Source: a virus
Strand: one strand, 5' to 3'
IMG/VR virus record: IMGVR_UViG_3300035698_004879
Location: 1 to 20,855 of that record
Length of the DNA stretch: 20,855 nucleotides
Both the position numbers and the translations under genes were made by a program. The notes below the pieces were generated by a model. It did not search any database. It had not been told where the DNA came from and was given only the letters and a program-made list of their open reading frames with translations. Shown here piece by piece: positions 2,256 to 17,518 of this stretch; within the stretch, counting starts at the first letter, position 1, and each line of letters starts with the position of its first letter.

Positions 2256-3185
2256 CTAAGGCGCTTGGCATCTCATTAGGGCTAACTCGTTCCCAGACCA
2301 ATGGGAGTTTAAATAGTCGATTGCTTTTAACATTGTTTCTGGCGAGTCGTGAAAGTTTCCAAGACCCGTGTTACATTTACGGCAAAGAAGTCCACGAACT
2401 TTTCCTGTCGAGTGACAGTGGTCAACTGCTAAATCTTGTGGCATATCTTTACCTTTTTGCTTTAGTGTTTCTTTCTTTTTACATATAGCACAGACTCCGT
2501 TTTGTCCATTAAGAAGGTTGTCATAATCATCGAGTGTTATACCGAAAGCCTTTTTCAGGCTTGCGTTTTTAACTTTTCTGGAGTTCTTGTCACGCCACAC
2601 TTTCATGTATTCGTTTCTTTGTGCCTTAACATCCCCGCTATTTGTTTCAACTATTATAGGGACGTACCACTCAAAATTATCTCTTCCTAACTCCTTTGCA
2701 GGGTCTATCGCTTTTATTGTGTGGTTCAGAGAAGGTCTGTCTCCTACATCCTCAACGAATTTCCAGAAATCTTTCCACCTTTCGCTTAAAATATAATCTA
2801 TAGACCTTTTTCTCCATGTCCATATGCTATGTAAAGGATGTTTCTCCTTCGACCCCCACCCAGCAGGTCTTGTTTGTCCTAGATGTCCGTGACGTTTCCA
2901 TCGTGCCCTGTGCATATTGCATAATCCTTTTGCGACAGAAATTTTTTCACAGCCTTCTACTGAACAAACTTTTCTTACTTTGGTATATTCCGGTGTGCCA
3001 TTTCTGTTTCGTCTTGAATTACAAGACCTACACAAGCCATGTGCCGCTATCGGCTTCTCTTCTCCACAGAACACACATTTTTGAATCTTGTATACCCTGC
3101 GCTTTAATGACTTTTTATAGCACTCCTCACAAAGATTTTTATTCTGGACGAGTCTTGTTACTTCACCACATTTTGAACACTTCAT
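2256..3185 (-). CDS. Endonuclease VII-type HNH homing endonuclease with zinc-finger array, 309 aa
   Basis: Three zinc-binding modules come first: C3/C6/C19/C22, C37/C40/C52/C55, and C74/C79/C89/H92 in a GLCNMHRARWKRHG context common in phage HNH enzymes. Residues about 116-176 (HPLHSIW...DFWKFVEDVGDRPS...NFEWYVP) resemble the DNA-binding segment often joined to phage HNH proteins. Residues 222-292 are the recombination endonuclease VII domain: CAIC at 232-235, LAVDHCHSTGKVRGLLC with the D255-H256-C257-H258 core, then CRKCNTGLG with N272. All expected metal and catalytic residues are present. It sits alone between the major capsid gene and the beta-helix gene, a typical place for a free-standing homing endonuclease that cuts capsid-free relatives. 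A host-junction resolving role is less likely. Confidence 0.88.
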   Translation of the reverse strand: MKCSKCGEVTRLVQNKNLCEECYKKSLKRRVYKIQKCVFCGEEKPIAAHGLCRSCNSRRNRNGTPEYTKVRKVCSVEGCEKISVAKGLCNMHRARWKRHGHLGQTRPAGWGSKEKHPLHSIWTWRKRSIDYILSERWKDFWKFVEDVGDRPSLNHTIKAIDPAKELGRDNFEWYVPIIVETNSGDVKAQRNEYMKVWRDKNSRKVKNASLKKAFGITLDDYDNLLNGQNGVCAICKKKETLKQKGKDMPQDLAVDHCHSTGKVRGLLCRKCNTGLGNFHDSPETMLKAIDYLNSHWSGNELALMRCQAP

Positions 3186-3248: not shown

Positions 3249-4160
3249 CTAACTACCCTCGCTGGCAAACATAGCCCGAGGGTCAGTCGCTCCGAAGGAA
3301 TACCTGGCTACAGTCTTGAACTTAGCGTTGTCAGTATCGAAATCATTATCCTGACTGAATCTATCTGTCCACCGCTCGAAATGCCTCATACCAGTGGGGC
3401 AGTCCGTGCCGATAAACCAAGCTTTGGTATCGGTAAAGTAATGGTTAACATGAACTCCGCCCGGGAATTTTCCAGTAGCCCTTAACACATTGATATCGTT
3501 ATTGGCTCCACCGCTCTGTAACTGCGATTTGAGAATTCTTCCCGCCTCAAAATCAAGGTCAGCAGGGATATGAAGTTTCATCGGTTTTACCGCGATTGTC
3601 AATCCTCTGTCGTTCGTGAGCTTGCTTATGTCGATACAGGCTTGCTCAAGAGAGGCTTCGGAAAGGTCAGCCGAAGTTGTTAATTCATTTCTCCACGTTC
3701 CACCGGATGCGTTCGGGTGAGCTGAGGAAAACAACTCAACACCGTCACCATAAACATAACTGTCATTAAATCCACGGTTAAGAATATTAGCGGCAACGGT
3801 TTCCCGTGTAGTGTATACTGAAAAAGCGAGTGCAGACGCACGATTCAGTACAGGTTGTTCGTACTGATTGTCATCATACATTTCGCGTGTTACTATGAAA
3901 CCAAGCCCATAAGTGACATGGGTATAACGTGTTACGAACGCCTGTTTCTGCGTGTCGTAACTAACTCCGCTTCCTTCGGCTTTCACCGGAGTAAGCCCGA
4001 ATGATGTTACACCGACATCCTCTTCAAACTTTTTAGTCGAAGGACTGGTTGTAAAGATTTGTTTATACTCCATGCCGTATTTTTTATACTCGGCGCCGTA
4101 GATAGTGTTCACGCCCGGCCATAGGAGTTTGCCAAAATTACCTGTGGAAATAGCAGGCAT
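3249..4160 (-). CDS. Major capsid protein, Mu gpT-like / HK97 fold, 303 aa
   Basis: The protein resembles the Mu-type major head subunit group. It has an N-terminal segment about starting assembly (MPAISTGNFGKLLWPGVN), a region YGLGFIVTREMYDDNQYEQP typical of these capsids, and a central FSSAHPNASGGTWRN followed by a long helix (LEQACIDISKLTNDRGL). It ends in a C-terminal region with FERWTDRFSQDNDFDT and ARYSFGATDPRAMFAS. Length about 300 aa is normal for the group. SD AAAGGAG lies 8 bases before the ATG. It follows the scaffold and decoration-like genes, the usual head-operon order. No protease gene is seen nearby, consistent with scaffold-driven assembly. Function is inferred from sequence pattern and gene order. 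Confidence 0.88.
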   Translation of the reverse strand: MPAISTGNFGKLLWPGVNTIYGAEYKKYGMEYKQIFTTSPSTKKFEEDVGVTSFGLTPVKAEGSGVSYDTQKQAFVTRYTHVTYGLGFIVTREMYDDNQYEQPVLNRASALAFSVYTTRETVAANILNRGFNDSYVYGDGVELFSSAHPNASGGTWRNELTTSADLSEASLEQACIDISKLTNDRGLTIAVKPMKLHIPADLDFEAGRILKSQLQSGGANNDINVLRATGKFPGGVHVNHYFTDTKAWFIGTDCPTGMRHFERWTDRFSQDNDFDTDNAKFKTVARYSFGATDPRAMFASEGS

Positions 4161-4848: not shown

Positions 4849-5283
4849 TTAGCGCTTAATGGTAACTTCGCCATAAGCACCAGAATCTTCGTCGATTCCG
4901 TCTTTCTTGTTTCTAACCAAACCCCTTTCGTTTTTGTCAATATTGTCTTGTTTTAGTTTTTGATCTGCCTTAAACAACTTCTCAGGAATTTCCATAAGAA
5001 CAGCAGACCTTCCGCCACCAACAGAACGTCTTACTTCCGTTCCCATTTGGCTTTCACCCCCAGAGTCTTCTCTAAGGTCTTGATTTGGTGCGGTTACTTT
5101 TGTCCAACCGGCGGCTTCATACATTTTTACATTTTGCCCGTCATCAACATCATTGACAACTCTTCTCGCAAAGCCTTCTCGTTGGTCGTATTTCAGTTTG
5201 TCTTGCTGTGCTACTGGAACTCTTGTCTGTCTTGTAGTGGCTTTGTTGCCTCTACCCGCTACTCCAGGTCTCTTGTTTGCCAT
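4849..5283 (-). CDS. Basic, probably disordered head-region protein, 144 aa
   Basis: The start codon overlaps the scaffold stop (TAATG), with AGGAG inside the end of the scaffold gene, so the two are translationally coupled. The protein is highly charged and Gly-rich, with a basic N-terminus (MANKRPGVAGRGNKATTRQT), a central KMYEAAGWTKV segment, and a charged tail. There are no Cys residues and no membrane segment. Similar short proteins between scaffold and capsid genes are common, but I recognise no family. A nucleic-acid-neutralising or assembly-helper role would be speculative. Confidence 0.6.
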   Translation of the reverse strand: MANKRPGVAGRGNKATTRQTRVPVAQQDKLKYDQREGFARRVVNDVDDGQNVKMYEAAGWTKVTAPNQDLREDSGGESQMGTEVRRSVGGGRSAVLMEIPEKLFKADQKLKQDNIDKNERGLVRNKKDGIDEDSGAYGEVTIKR

Positions 5284-6383
5284 TATTTTAATACTCCTGT
5301 CTCAACCAATTCATCGACATACTCTTGCCTCGAATATCCTTCGATTGCATCAACCATGTTATCGCAGACTCGTTTTGCTTCTGCGCTTAGGTCTTCGTAT
5401 GTAAATTTCTTGGCTGTGTTTGTTTTGTTTTGGTTAACAGTGCTTTCCACTGTTGCGACTTGTGGCTGTTTTTTCTTCTGTTCTTCAGCCTTCTTTTCTT
5501 CTTCTTTCTTAGGTTCTTCAACAGCCTTGGTTTCTGGTTCTTTAGGAGAGAATACCTCCATCTCCTTATCTATCAGTTTAAGTAAATCTTCATCGTGCGC
5601 ACCTCCGGATTTTTCCCATTTATCAATAATTGCATTTGCGTATGCTGTTTTGGGTCCGTCAGTGGTATACCAAGTATTCTTGTCTTGCCATTCGACAATA
5701 AGAGGGTCTACTTCTGGTGTTTCCTCTGTCTTGGTACTGTCTGCTTCTTTTTGTATTTCCTCTATTTTGGTTTCTATTTGCTCGACTTCTTCAACTTCGC
5801 CTGCCCTGATAGCCTCTTTTTTGTCTTCTTTTAGTTTATCAAGTTCAGCTTTGTATCTCGCATCGAATAATGCGTTTTGGTGTTTTGTTTGTGATACTAA
5901 AATTTTCTTAATATCAGTTACTTCTTTTGCGAGACGCTTATTTTCCTTTCTCGCGCTGTGAGCTATTTCAGGTGCATTGAGAATAAACTGTTTAGCGTCT
6001 ATAAACTCTTTGCCTTCTCCACCGTCAAACTCATCTTTAGGTCTCCATCCCATTGTACGGGCAAGTGCTTCGTATGCCTCGTCTTTAATTTTTTCCTCGC
6101 TCGTTTGCTCGGTTACGGCGGGAGCGTCCTCGTCCTTCTTTGTTTCTGGTTCAACTTCCTTTTCGTCGGCTACTTCTTTTTTAGCCTCGGGTTCTTTCTC
6201 TTTTTTTTCATCGTCACCTTTTGTGCCGTCTTCTGCTGCTTTCTTTGCTTCTGCCTCTTTCTCTTCTTTTTCGTCAAACGATTTTTCTCTTGTGTCTAAG
6301 AGAGTTTCCGTTATCTTTTCCATCTCTGCGTGTTCTTCTGGGGTATACTCAATACCATCCACTACTACCGGTTCTCCAGCCAT
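5283..6383 (-). CDS. Capsid scaffolding protein, 366 aa
   Basis: The N-terminal third is a low-complexity Lys/Glu/Ala stretch. A segment RTMGWRPKDEFDGGEGKEF with DAKQFI follows; the GW(R)P-K-E/D-F pattern recurs in scaffold proteins of phages with P22-like heads. A long coiled coil follows (about residues 185-235 and again after 290), and the C-terminus is compact and mixed-charge, where scaffolds normally bind capsid. I use the ATG at 6383, which has AAGGAG 7 bases upstream, rather than an in-frame TTG at 6410 inside the terminator T-tract. It lies directly ahead of the decoration and capsid genes and directly behind the promoter/tandem-repeat/terminator leader, so its expression, and perhaps that of the capsid block, is probably set there. 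Confidence 0.82.
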   Translation of the reverse strand: MAGEPVVVDGIEYTPEEHAEMEKITETLLDTREKSFDEKEEKEAEAKKAAEDGTKGDDEKKEKEPEAKKEVADEKEVEPETKKDEDAPAVTEQTSEEKIKDEAYEALARTMGWRPKDEFDGGEGKEFIDAKQFILNAPEIAHSARKENKRLAKEVTDIKKILVSQTKHQNALFDARYKAELDKLKEDKKEAIRAGEVEEVEQIETKIEEIQKEADSTKTEETPEVDPLIVEWQDKNTWYTTDGPKTAYANAIIDKWEKSGGAHDEDLLKLIDKEMEVFSPKEPETKAVEEPKKEEEKKAEEQKKKQPQVATVESTVNQNKTNTAKKFTYEDLSAEAKRVCDNMVDAIEGYSRQEYVDELVETGVLK

Positions 6384-6408: not shown

Positions 6409-6468
6409 AAAAAAAAGCCCGAATGATTGACTGCCTATCTTAATAGGTTTTCAGTCTAATACATTCGG
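6409..6468 (-). terminator. Intrinsic terminator in the leader of the scaffold gene
   Basis: Minus-strand stem CCGAATG (6462-6468) pairs with CATTCGG (6419-6425). Inside it is a second helix GACTG/CAGTC carrying CCTAT/ATAGG with a TAAG loop. The structure is followed by GC and an eight-T tract (6416-6409). This is a complete Rho-independent terminator on the strand of the scaffold gene. It lies only 25 bases upstream of that gene's start, after a promoter, so it is placed to act as an attenuator rather than the end of an operon. Its first two bases (CC) are also the last two bases of the upstream repeat copy. Confidence 0.85.
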
Positions 6469-6573
6469 ACTTGAATCACACTTCTCTTGCCTTGAAGTGC
6501 TATCAGTAACCTTTGTAATGTCTTGTTTCAGGACTTGAATCACGTTAATTAAAGCGTTATCAGTAACCTTTGG
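6467..6573 (-). promoter_or_regulatory. Tandem 43/49-nt repeat, candidate double aptamer of an attenuator
   Basis: Two direct copies lie in the leader, at 6531-6573 (first transcribed) and 6467-6515. Each copy runs AAAGGTTACTGATA, then a variable hairpin, then GTGATTCAAGTCC. The flanks are nearly identical. The middles differ in sequence but keep pairing: CACTTC/GAAGTG in the second copy, and a weaker AT-rich stem in the first. The flanks can pair with each other (GG-bulge-ACT with AGTCC). Conserved flanks around a covarying hairpin suggest selection on RNA structure. The 3' CC of the second copy is shared with the terminator stem, so the two folds exclude one another. I recognise no known riboswitch class. 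A protein operator pair is the main alternative. Confidence 0.7.
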
Positions 6574-6579
6574 AAAAGG

Positions 6580-6608
6580 AACATATGTTAAATTTTAGTT
6601 ATTGTCAA
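6580..6608 (-). promoter_or_regulatory. Sigma70-type promoter for the scaffold/capsid block
   Basis: Minus-strand TTGACA (6608-6603), a 17-base spacer, then TATGTT (6585-6580). The -35 box is perfect and the -10 box matches four of six. It starts just after the co-chaperonin stop codon and faces the tandem repeat, terminator and scaffold gene, giving a leader of about 190 bases. It would boost head-protein transcription over read-through from upstream. Confidence 0.75.
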
Positions 6609-6621
6609 GTGTTTTTTTAAA

Positions 6622-7005
6622 TTATTTTTCATCCGGTATATAACCAAGTACATCTTCATCGTTCATATACCTGTATACGTCAGGGTCTTGCTTTACTTCT
6701 CTTCCCGCATGTAGAACAAAGTCTATGACATCCCATTGCTTACACCACGGACCTTCAGTATATCTGTCTTTGTCTGCATAACACCCGGGTCCCATCTTAA
6801 CAACGATACCCCGCGCCTGATTGAGTTCCAGTCTTTCTTTTGTTACGGGAAGCAGGGCTATGCCATGTTCCGAAACATCCTTTACTCTGGGCATTTTTAT
6901 TAATATTCTCCACCCGACAGGTTCTCCGAGTTTTTCTTCTAATCTTTTTAGCTTTGCTTCCATTTCCTCCAGTGTCATGTCCCTTGTTATTACCGGCTTC
7001 TCCAT
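6622..7005 (-). CDS. GroES-like phage co-chaperonin, 127 aa
   Basis: From residue 31 the protein follows the GroES (Cpn10) layout. It has an opening strand GWRILIKMP, a short flexible region at the mobile-loop position, and the dome/roof strand ARGIVVKMGPGCY. A WDVIDFVLHAGREVKQD strand pair corresponds to GDkVlf...ageevk. The closing RYMNDEDVLGYI corresponds to GroES y-ilreeDILavi. An N-terminal helical extension (residues 8-27) is unlike bacterial GroES. Phage versions such as T4 gp31 replace host GroES to fold a capsid protein. Here the gene lies next to the scaffold and capsid block, which fits that role. SD AAATGGAGGAAG lies ahead of the ATG. The putative mobile loop is not obviously the canonical GroEL-binding tripeptide. 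Confidence 0.8.
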   Translation of the reverse strand: MEKPVITRDMTLEEMEAKLKRLEEKLGEPVGWRILIKMPRVKDVSEHGIALLPVTKERLELNQARGIVVKMGPGCYADKDRYTEGPWCKQWDVIDFVLHAGREVKQDPDVYRYMNDEDVLGYIPDEK

Positions 7006-7024
7006 TTGCTTCCTCCATTTTTGT

Positions 7025-7195
7025 TCATTTAAGAAACGTGCTTTCGTGACTTATACTGCATGATGCTACATTACCTTCACTAAAACATAGAATAACCGTA
7101 GTCTTCCCAGTTTTTCTACTATCGTTGTAGTCTTTTATCATGTCGTCAAACTTTCTAACCATTTCTTTACGCTTCTTTAAAGACTTTTCGCTCAT
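7025..7195 (-). CDS. Small basic protein of unknown function, 56 aa
   Basis: The frame starts one base after the preceding stop (TAATATG) and ends just before the co-chaperonin ribosome site. The N-terminus is a charged helix (MSEKSLKKRKEMVRKFDDMI) and the C-terminal half looks like a beta hairpin (KTTVILCFSEGNVASCSIS). The SD is weak, so translation probably depends on coupling to the upstream gene. I recognise no family. Confidence 0.5.
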   Translation of the reverse strand: MSEKSLKKRKEMVRKFDDMIKDYNDSRKTGKTTVILCFSEGNVASCSISHESTFLK

Positions 7196-7196
7196 A

Positions 7197-7442
7197 TTAT
7201 TCCCAAGTATCGTATGTCATTATAACATCTATTACCTCATCAAGGCAATCTTTAAAGGATATATCTCTCGTCATGTTTTCGTGTGTTTTAATCGCATTCC
7301 CTGATTCATAGGCACTACCGTCAGCGAGGTTATCTAAACTTTCGGATTGCATTGACTTAATAAGTTCAATTAACTTCTGTGTTTCATCTTGGGCTAACCA
7401 GTCTTCGTGATGAGCTTTATCAACTTTCAGTATTTTCGCCAT
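7197..7442 (-). CDS. Small acidic helical protein, 81 aa, unknown
   Basis: Overlaps the 3' end of the portal gene by 23 bases, indicating translational coupling. The product is acidic and mainly helical (MAKILKVDKAHHEDWLAQ..., FKDCLDEVIDVIMTYDTWE), without metal ligands or membrane segment. The place after the portal is often used by head-completion or adaptor genes, but this sequence is short for one. Function not recognised. Confidence 0.6.
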   Translation of the reverse strand: MAKILKVDKAHHEDWLAQDETQKLIELIKSMQSESLDNLADGSAYESGNAIKTHENMTRDISFKDCLDEVIDVIMTYDTWE

Positions 7443-9495
7443 CGCTCTTCTTCCCCATTATAAGTTTTTTAAGAGTCTGCATAAGCCCTTTGTTAACTCC
7501 ATCTTTCGCTGTGAGTTCGCGGCTTATCTCGTCAAGTCGTGCCTCTACGCTTACATTTCTCGCCTCTTCGTTGGCTTTATTGGCTTCTGCGGCTGCTTTC
7601 AGGGCTTCCTGTCTTAACTTCTCGTTTTCAAATTCAGCGGTTTTAGCCTTTATATCCACCTCTTTTTCTTTTGCGGCAATCTCTCTCTCTTTTATTTCCA
7701 TCTCTTTTTGTGCCATCTGTTCTTCTGGGGTCGGGGGCGGCGGCTTAGGGTTATCGGGGAATAGCTCATCAAGATCGTCAATGCCGAGTGCTTCCACATA
7801 ACGTCTGGTAATTATATCTTTTCTTTTTTGGTCGGTTATCTTGCCCCCATCTACAAGTTCCATTAATGCCTGCGCCTTGAGTCTTCTCTGGCTATTTGTA
7901 ATAACCTCGGGATCGCTTACAGGAACTATATCACAATCATCGGTATTGTAATCATCAACACTTATCGCCTCAGTTGAGTCAAGAACGCGGTAATAATCTA
8001 TATCGCTGAGATACAGTTTATTTAATCTGAATAACTTCTTAAACTCTTTTTTGAGTGAGCGGTGAATACGCCTGTATATGGATGTCGTTGTAGCTAATCC
8101 CTGTTCAAGCATTGTGAGTGTCGTTGTCGCGGGTACGCCAGCAGGAGGAGGTTTCCCTGCCATTAAATCTGTGGATGAAGAGAACTCCTTTGCTGAATCA
8201 ATCATAAGGTTAAGGAGATTATACAGCACAAGAGAGGGTTCGTTCGTAGGGATTTTATAGAACGATTTGCTTAAATCCTCACCTCTATGGTTTACCGCTT
8301 TCCATTCACCGATTTCAAACTCAAGATTACCGCCTTCTCTTCCGGCTTTAAGCGCAACTTTCTGGCTTACGAAACCGCCGCTAAGATTATTTAGCGTTCC
8401 GGCATCAAGAAGTTGGTTGAGGGTTGTATTTACGACTTTATTGCTATTGCTGAGAAGTATTCCGAACCCGATAGGGTAGAATGAACCGTCAATAGGAGGT
8501 AAGAACCTATAGTCCGTGAAATATTGGACTGGTTCGATTCTTATGAGTTTGCCTTTTTTGTCTTCCTTAATTCCGTCAATATCCCATCGTGCAACTATTC
8601 TGACGGTAGTCTGACTTTGTTTATGGACTGTGGCGATATAGGGTTCTTTATATCCGTCATCATCTACATCAAGCCACCGATGCTGTTCGTAGAATGTATG
8701 AGATGCGTCTTTATCATTGTTGTCGTTTTTGCCTTTCTTTTTGTCATCTTCATCTGTCTGGGCATTACCAAAATCCCATTTAATGAATGTCCCCGCATTT
8801 ATCCTTTCTACAATTTCATTCGGGTACAGCGTGTATACGTGAGTTATACGGTTTACGCTGTCAAGGCTTTTTGCCCAGTAATTAACAACAACATCATCTG
8901 CGCTGTAATATTCAGATACATTCTTGCCATTAACAAAGTTTTTGAACGTTTTCTTATAAGCAAGCCCGACAATAGGAAGAACCATTAAAAGCCTGTCCAT
9001 GCCATCTTCCCAGCCATCCATTACTTCGAGAATCTGGTAACTCATGTGTGCGCCTACTCTGTCGGCTCTCTTCCTTTTTTCTCCTTCTGGGTCAGCACCA
9101 ACTACTTTGCCCTTGACAATCTGTTCGTCTTTAATAAGATTTGCAGACGCTCGGGATGCAAACTGTAATGCCGCCTGAGCAATGATAGGATACATTATAT
9201 TCGCGGCTTTCTTCCATGGAAATGCCTTTGGAGTAGGAATCATCTTGGCAAGTTTAACTGCCTTTTCTGTCTGGAGTTCCCATTCTGCGCGGCTTTCTTT
9301 GTCGATATCGTGTTCCTCAATAACCGTTCGAGCAATAAGATTAAGTTTTTCTTCGTTAAAGAATTTCTTATTGGTGGCGATGTTGGTCATTTCCATCATC
9401 TGCTCATAGATATTCTTCTCGTATTGCTCTGCTTGTTCCGCCGTGATTTCTGGAGCAACGCTTTCTTCTTCTACAGCCGCTATATCTTCTATCAT
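7420..9495 (-). CDS. Portal protein, 691 aa
   Basis: The length, the gene order after the large terminase, and the sequence all fit a large portal protein of the P22-like/podovirus group. The N-terminal wing includes FPWKKAANIMYPIIAQAALQFASRA, a typical segment in which the portal family places W-K-x-A-x-N-x-x-x-P. A middle beta-rich region ends with PVQYFTDYRFLPPIDGSFYPIGFGILL. The long crown/stem helix region (LLNLMIDSAKEFSSSTDLMAGKPPP, LEQGLATTTSIYRRIHRSLKKEFKKLFRLN) follows. From about residue 580 a proline run leads into a 100-residue charged coiled coil, which would form the internal barrel. Twelve copies would make the packaging channel at the capsid vertex. SD GAGGTG lies before the ATG. 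Confidence 0.9.
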   Translation of the reverse strand: MIEDIAAVEEESVAPEITAEQAEQYEKNIYEQMMEMTNIATNKKFFNEEKLNLIARTVIEEHDIDKESRAEWELQTEKAVKLAKMIPTPKAFPWKKAANIMYPIIAQAALQFASRASANLIKDEQIVKGKVVGADPEGEKRKRADRVGAHMSYQILEVMDGWEDGMDRLLMVLPIVGLAYKKTFKNFVNGKNVSEYYSADDVVVNYWAKSLDSVNRITHVYTLYPNEIVERINAGTFIKWDFGNAQTDEDDKKKGKNDNNDKDASHTFYEQHRWLDVDDDGYKEPYIATVHKQSQTTVRIVARWDIDGIKEDKKGKLIRIEPVQYFTDYRFLPPIDGSFYPIGFGILLSNSNKVVNTTLNQLLDAGTLNNLSGGFVSQKVALKAGREGGNLEFEIGEWKAVNHRGEDLSKSFYKIPTNEPSLVLYNLLNLMIDSAKEFSSSTDLMAGKPPPAGVPATTTLTMLEQGLATTTSIYRRIHRSLKKEFKKLFRLNKLYLSDIDYYRVLDSTEAISVDDYNTDDCDIVPVSDPEVITNSQRRLKAQALMELVDGGKITDQKRKDIITRRYVEALGIDDLDELFPDNPKPPPPTPEEQMAQKEMEIKEREIAAKEKEVDIKAKTAEFENEKLRQEALKAAAEANKANEEARNVSVEARLDEISRELTAKDGVNKGLMQTLKKLIMGKKSDGENTES

Positions 9496-9508
9496 TCTTC
9501 ACCTCATA

Positions 9509-9751
9509 TTATTCTCTGAACATTAATATCGTTTCATTGCCGCCTATTGCACACAATTCATCTCCCCGAAAGTCATTATGCTGTATTGTACGACCGTCAT
9601 TAAACCAATAACAGGTAACATGGGGATTCTCGTCTGCCATTTCACCTTTTTCTTTCCTGATATATTTAACTTTTTCAACCACCATATTAACTGATGTGGC
9701 TATTTTAGGCGATACCATATCACCGGCAAAAACATCAATTTCTTTACGCAC
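9509..9751 (-). CDS. YodC/DUF2158-like small protein, 80 aa
   Basis: Begins with GTG, which has GGAGG 8 bases upstream. The layout GDMVSPK, then SVNMVVEKV, then HVTCYWFNDGRTIQHNDFRGDELCAI matches the small YodC-like family. In that family a GD-V-L opening is followed by M-V and then V-C-WF-G and F-ELE segments, forming a compact beta barrel. The biochemical function of that family is unknown. Here it lies between the lipoprotein and portal genes. The assignment is by pattern only. Confidence 0.6.
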   Translation of the reverse strand: MRKEIDVFAGDMVSPKIATSVNMVVEKVKYIRKEKGEMADENPHVTCYWFNDGRTIQHNDFRGDELCAIGGNETILMFRE

Positions 9752-14365: not shown

Positions 14366-14394
14366 ATTATACACTGTCCTCCGATTTTTGTCAA
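14366..14394 (-). promoter_or_regulatory. Consensus sigma70 promoter of the late leftward unit
   Basis: Minus-strand TTGACA (14394-14389), exactly 17 bases, then TATAAT (14371-14366): both boxes perfect. The start of transcription should fall at about 14359-14362, the first bases of leader L1. It lies right after the mini-HNH gene and would serve the small genes, terminase and portal. Confidence 0.85.
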
Positions 14395-17489: not shown

Positions 17490-17518
17490 ATTATATGGTA
17501 TATTTACAGTTTTGTCAA
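17490..17518 (-). promoter_or_regulatory. Consensus sigma70 promoter of the leftward replication unit
   Basis: Minus-strand TTGACA (17518-17513), 17-base spacer, TATAAT (17495-17490), both perfect. It drives the structured leader, nuclease, initiator and helicase. It is divergent from the rightward promoter about 50 bases away. Confidence 0.85.

Follow-up and report, generated by a model that had tools for sequence, protein, structure and literature searches.

A 238-bp gap (6621-6384) in the head module of this phage contains a candidate promoter, two tandem repeat units and a terminator, raising the question of whether these parts form a switch that controls the scaffold and capsid genes or an element of another kind. 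The window, i.e. the whole stretch of DNA that was analysed, is one contig of 20,855 bases, the minus strand of which carries a head module consisting of terminase, portal, a GroES-like gene, a putative scaffold gene, two small genes and the major capsid protein gene. All parts of the leader lie on the minus strand, inside the gap that separates the GroES-like and putative scaffold genes:

6622..7005, minus strand: GroES-like gene (phrog_3188, PF00166), upstream of the leader
6580..6608, minus strand: candidate sigma-70-like promoter, -35 TTGACA at 6608-6603, 17 nt, -10 TATGTT at 6585-6580
6558..6572, minus strand: A1, CAAAGGTTACTGATA, 15 nt, identical to A2
6557-6544, minus strand: variable middle of copy 1, 3 bp plus mismatches
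6531..6543, minus strand: B1, GTGATTCAAGTCC, 13 nt, identical to B2
6501..6515, minus strand: A2, CAAAGGTTACTGATA, 15 nt, identical to A1
6480..6500, minus strand: variable middle of copy 2, GCACUUC..GAAGUGU stem of 7 bp
6467..6479, minus strand: B2, GTGATTCAAGTCC, 13 nt, ending in AAGTCC, six bases with which the terminator stem begins
6409..6472, minus strand: strong intrinsic terminator, -25.8 kcal/mol, z -6.26, U8
5283..6383, minus strand: putative scaffold gene, 366 aa, acidic, first gene past the terminator
3249..4160, minus strand: major capsid protein gene (PF25209, phrog_371), in a common transcription unit with the scaffold gene

The promoter TTGACA-17-TATGTT, the two repeats and the terminator, which ends 25 nt upstream of the scaffold ATG at 6383, were all found where the initial annotation had placed them. 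The promoter candidate has 10 of the 12 consensus bases; when the 238-bp gap is dinucleotide-shuffled, 9% of the results equal or beat it, so that it is suggestive only, plausible but not proven. Transcription is predicted to start at about 6573, 1–3 nt ahead of A1. The putative scaffold gene is named from its position between the GroES-like and capsid genes, an order kept in relatives, and its protein yielded neither a family match nor any match when used as a search query. The capsid protein had no match in the bacterial genomes searched, and the likeness of the window DNA to phage and plasmid records was at chance level only. Behind the capsid gene lies an Endonuclease VII-type gene (2256-3185, minus strand; PF02945, E 1e-24), likely a free-standing homing endonuclease.

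The A/B repeats exceed chance, the longest exact repeat in the gap being 15 nt against a maximum of 14 nt and a usual length of 7–8 nt in 2,000 shuffles. The flanks of the two copies had been described as nearly identical, and blocks A and B indeed match at every base, enclosing middles of 14 nt in copy 1 and 21 nt in copy 2 that differ in sequence. From start to start, the A blocks are 57 nt apart and the B blocks 64 nt, corresponding to a 7-nt indel between A and B; the pair is therefore not a coding repeat and keeps no constant helical phase. A 47-codon open frame that spans the repeats was considered as a coding reading and rejected, since it has no start with a ribosome site and the indel contradicts it; a search for homologues of this frame among phages gave none. 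Because the middles differ in sequence and length, a recent plain duplication does not explain the identical flanks, a pattern that implies constraint on A and B rather than mere duplication.

The solid part of the switch idea is the sequence common to B2 and the terminator stem: as had been noticed, copy 2 supplies the opening of the stem. Removal of AAGTCC changes the stem energy from -25.3 to -14.7 kcal/mol and leaves the stem 4 nt off the U-tract, so that holding B2 should weaken termination. B1 also ends in AAGTCC, and no terminator is found there, which suggests that these bases belong to the element and that the terminator was built onto B2. No promoter is evident between the terminator and the scaffold gene; the locus has the layout of a transcription attenuator, with an intrinsic terminator between the promoter and the first gene. 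A terminator of this strength ahead of the capsid genes would presumably be costly if it were unregulated. Of the switch originally proposed, the requirement that scaffold and capsid expression read through the terminator stands, as does the overlap of the second repeat with the terminator stem, here six bases; the selected RNA structure is not supported.

The reading favoured here, tentatively, is a cis-acting transcription-attenuator leader with tandem A/B sites recognised by a putative factor. The promoter at 6608-6580, together with read-through from upstream, would make a leader of about 165 nt, the RNA normally ending at the terminator that precedes scaffold. Sequence specificity would reside in the two A..B units, which the putative factor would recognise in the nascent RNA; a phage or host protein, or RNA polymerase itself, seems likelier in this role than a small molecule. 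If B2, with the AAGUCC at the base of the terminator stem, were held, termination would be weaker and polymerase could enter the scaffold and capsid genes. The trp, pyr and rplJL leaders, which are protein- or ribosome-dependent attenuators, similarly have a promoter, a leader of 150–200 nt and, immediately upstream of the first gene, an intrinsic terminator whose 5′ arm has bases in common with a leader element. The window leader differs from them in lacking a leader peptide that has both a start codon and a ribosome site, in its hypothetical factor and predicted alternative fold, and in its target, which is phage scaffold and capsid.

It is the terminator that accounts for most of the folding excess in the leader. 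Without it, the repeats do not fold more stably than shuffles (z +0.57 together; copy 1 +0.77; copy 2 -1.08), and the unusually stable fold common to both units that would be expected of a tandem riboswitch was not found. The hairpin between the flanks, which had been said to stay pairable, is a stem of 7 bp in copy 2 and only 3 bp plus mismatches in copy 1. Pairing of A with B is possible (GG[UU]ACUGA with UC[A]AGUCC), and the duplex is unexceptional, with shuffled A and B pairing equally well in 30% of trials (p 0.30). Taken with the folding of the repeats alone and the short stem of copy 1, this leaves the selected RNA structure claimed by the initial annotation unsupported. In thermodynamic folds of growing transcripts, A-B pairing ranks among the leading folds predicted for the nascent RNA before the 3′ arm of the terminator appears, the probability of the A2-B2 stem being 0.4–0.7 before that arm emerges and 0 thereafter. 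The finished terminator beats A2-B2 by a wide margin, and an attenuator must therefore assume a factor. One of the three middle-stem pairs has a double change between the copies (shuffle control 248/500), and with only two sequences the covariation of this stem cannot be significant; since no homologue of the A..B element turned up in the viral contigs, genomes and relatives searched, it offers no covariation evidence.

The Rfam search of the leader gave no match at the family cut-off, in agreement with the earlier failure to assign it to a named class, and C/D-box snoRNA hits (E 0.6) were set aside as chance. Neither the 2.9 million viral contigs nor the 84,980 genomes searched contain the exact A..B pattern. 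A looser pattern produced 10 matches, none of which has a tandem copy, a terminator or a link to the element; they were rejected as homologues, being apparently coding and at chance level. The A..A pattern was found in 65 contigs, mainly as in-frame VTD protein repeats, and in a CRISPR array in contig L233. The A..B element is an orphan within the searchable collections, in which records very close to the window may be omitted.

The capsid protein query returned 58 relatives with 45–59% identity, and the set was widened to 214 loci by querying with the capsids of two relatives. No A..B element was present in the loci of capsid-sharing relatives searched with the pattern or with a model of the two copies; the covariance model recovered only the copies in the window, other matches having E values of at least 0.013 and broken pairs. 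Rfam gave no matches in 11 relatives. In most relatives the GroES and scaffold genes are close or overlapping, and in about 10 a strong intergenic terminator stands directly ahead of GroES (L003, L004, L077, L017 and L080) or of scaffold (L048, L038, L072 and L152; in L090, which also has a strong terminator, the placement is less clear), without the repeat. A strict scan of the 1.8–3.2 kb before the capsid gene gave sense hits at 19 of the 107 distinct loci and antisense hits at 10, a moderate excess of which the intergenic cases are the convincing part.

Since relatives have the terminator and not the repeat, the terminator appears as the recurrent feature of the GroES/scaffold junction and the repeat as an addition in the window phage. 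The occurrence of these terminators without the repeat, an outcome that the initial annotation had itself named as counting against its proposal, speaks against a switch that depends on the repeat; their recurrence supports the view that termination before the head genes may be useful to such phages. Sequences upstream of the terminators in L048 (AAGGGTTACT), L003, L004 and L077 (TGATTCTAAG) were considered as A/B-like remnants and rejected after comparison with shuffles (p 0.07–0.99). In two relatives (L152:1067-1180 and L038:5003-5100), a stretch upstream of the terminator (TTGGGCnnAACCT..) pairs with GCCCAA or GCCCGAA downstream, enclosing the terminator before the next gene.

A second leader lies at 17518-17299 on the minus strand of the window, with a perfect TTGACA-17-TATAAT promoter at 17518, a leader of about 190 nt and a terminator whose end lies about 20 nt upstream of ATG 17298. 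The 5′ part of the leader, GUGCGAUAAACUAAGCGUAG, is complementary to CUACGUUAAGUUGCGCAC in the terminator region, and the alternative fold formed by this pairing is the one predicted as optimal (z -3.04), making the region a second attenuator candidate, by folding better supported than the scaffold leader. No motif common to the two leaders is evident. The order of promoter, leader, terminator and gene occurs twice in this phage, which makes regulated termination more likely. Two related minus-strand elements, GGGGCTGTG..GACGGRCAC..CAGCCCC, at 14360-14277 and 14039-13951, each stand ahead of one of two consecutive small genes, the former immediately downstream of a perfect sigma-70 promoter at 14394; they had no match among phage records and their folding is not unusual (z -1.1). 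At 943-1233 on the minus strand, a gene encodes a small zinc-ribbon protein, DnaJ CXXCXGXG-like, with weak matches to Q-like antitermination families (phrog_6060, E 5e-4; phrog_127, E 3e-3), which probably reflect merely a common zinc motif. This protein is a possible trans factor.

Among the other explanations, a stand-alone small RNA gene is the main rival, though rather unlikely. Its promoter at 6608 would give a transcript of about 165 nt that carries two linear A/B sites, acting as sponge, decoy or antisense, and ends at its own U8 terminator; its location before scaffold would be incidental and the head genes would depend on read-through. Only non-coding sequence lies between promoter and terminator, the segment looks inserted given the tight GroES-scaffold junction of most relatives, and repeats that are not unusually folded would suit linear binding sites. 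Such an RNA would, however, put a strong terminator before the capsid genes, and no promoter is evident downstream of that terminator; in addition, B2 is common to element and terminator, and relatives have a terminator at the junction without such an RNA. Phage small RNAs and RNA anti-CRISPRs (PMC10651486) are likewise short non-coding transcripts, encoded between phage genes and driven by a promoter of their own, and the candidate promoter within 250 bp upstream is a feature of the latter; the leader differs in its two copies, their unequal middles and the terminator abutting scaffold. A mimic of CRISPR repeats, acting as an RNA anti-CRISPR or a mini-array for a Cas12f/u-type system, is the most improbable of the readings considered. 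The unrelated IMG/VR contig L233 carries, at 6581-9563, a Cas12f/Cas12u3-like gene with a 12-repeat CRISPR array (repeat GTATCAGTAACCTTCGAGAGATTCAGTTGATGTGAG) that contains CGAAGGTTACTGATAC, equal to 14 of the 15 bases of A, and phages are known to carry single repeat units downstream of promoters (PMC10651486). The likeness is nevertheless partial, being confined to a 15-nt end of one repeat; B has no match there beyond chance, the spacer-like parts are 14 and 21 nt, and the match is a single one from a broad scan. As only one array is involved, the remainder of its repeat is unmatched (p 0.39) and the array polarity suggests that A would be antisense to the crRNA, the likeness is probably due to chance.

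Processive antitermination of the HK022 put kind, in which two units would act directly on RNA polymerase to make it ignore this and later terminators, is improbable. HK022 put consists of two stem-loops of about 70 nt that act in cis without a protein (PMC9378689), and the leader resembles its description in having two cis units just past a phage promoter with terminators downstream. The put stems are folded, whereas copy 1 here is nearly unstructured, so that two stable stem-loops are not found; the window units are about 40–50 nt, each with two linear conserved blocks, and the element has bases in common with the terminator. A DNA-binding operator would account for exact short repeats downstream of and near a promoter, and is still less probable, as A and B are not palindromic, their spacing shifts by 7 bp and B2 overlaps the terminator arm. 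The tandem aptamers suggested, among other options, by the initial annotation, as in cooperative riboswitches, found no backing in an Rfam match, a homologue or ligand evidence, and a metabolite-sensing tandem riboswitch is very improbable. Glycine-type riboswitches (PMC9481103) also combine two similar units with one terminator platform, and here too a unit overlaps the stem; the window element differs in belonging to no Rfam family or class, in its lack of a demonstrated common fold or unusually folded units, in the absence of its exact patterns from 85,000 genomes and 2.9 million viral contigs, and in being followed by structural rather than metabolic genes.

The locus is probably a regulated gate, as in the attenuator reading preferred here, or a small RNA gene, the RNA fold and the switch being hypothetical. 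That the leader belongs to a new class of phage RNA, using two split recognition sites to control read-through into virion assembly genes and thereby to time capsid production, is doubtful. Terminators placed directly before GroES or scaffold recur in about ten relatives at two alternative junctions. Should the tandem element prove to be the gate, it would constitute a new RNA regulator of virion assembly; should the leader be a small RNA, the interest would lie in its target.
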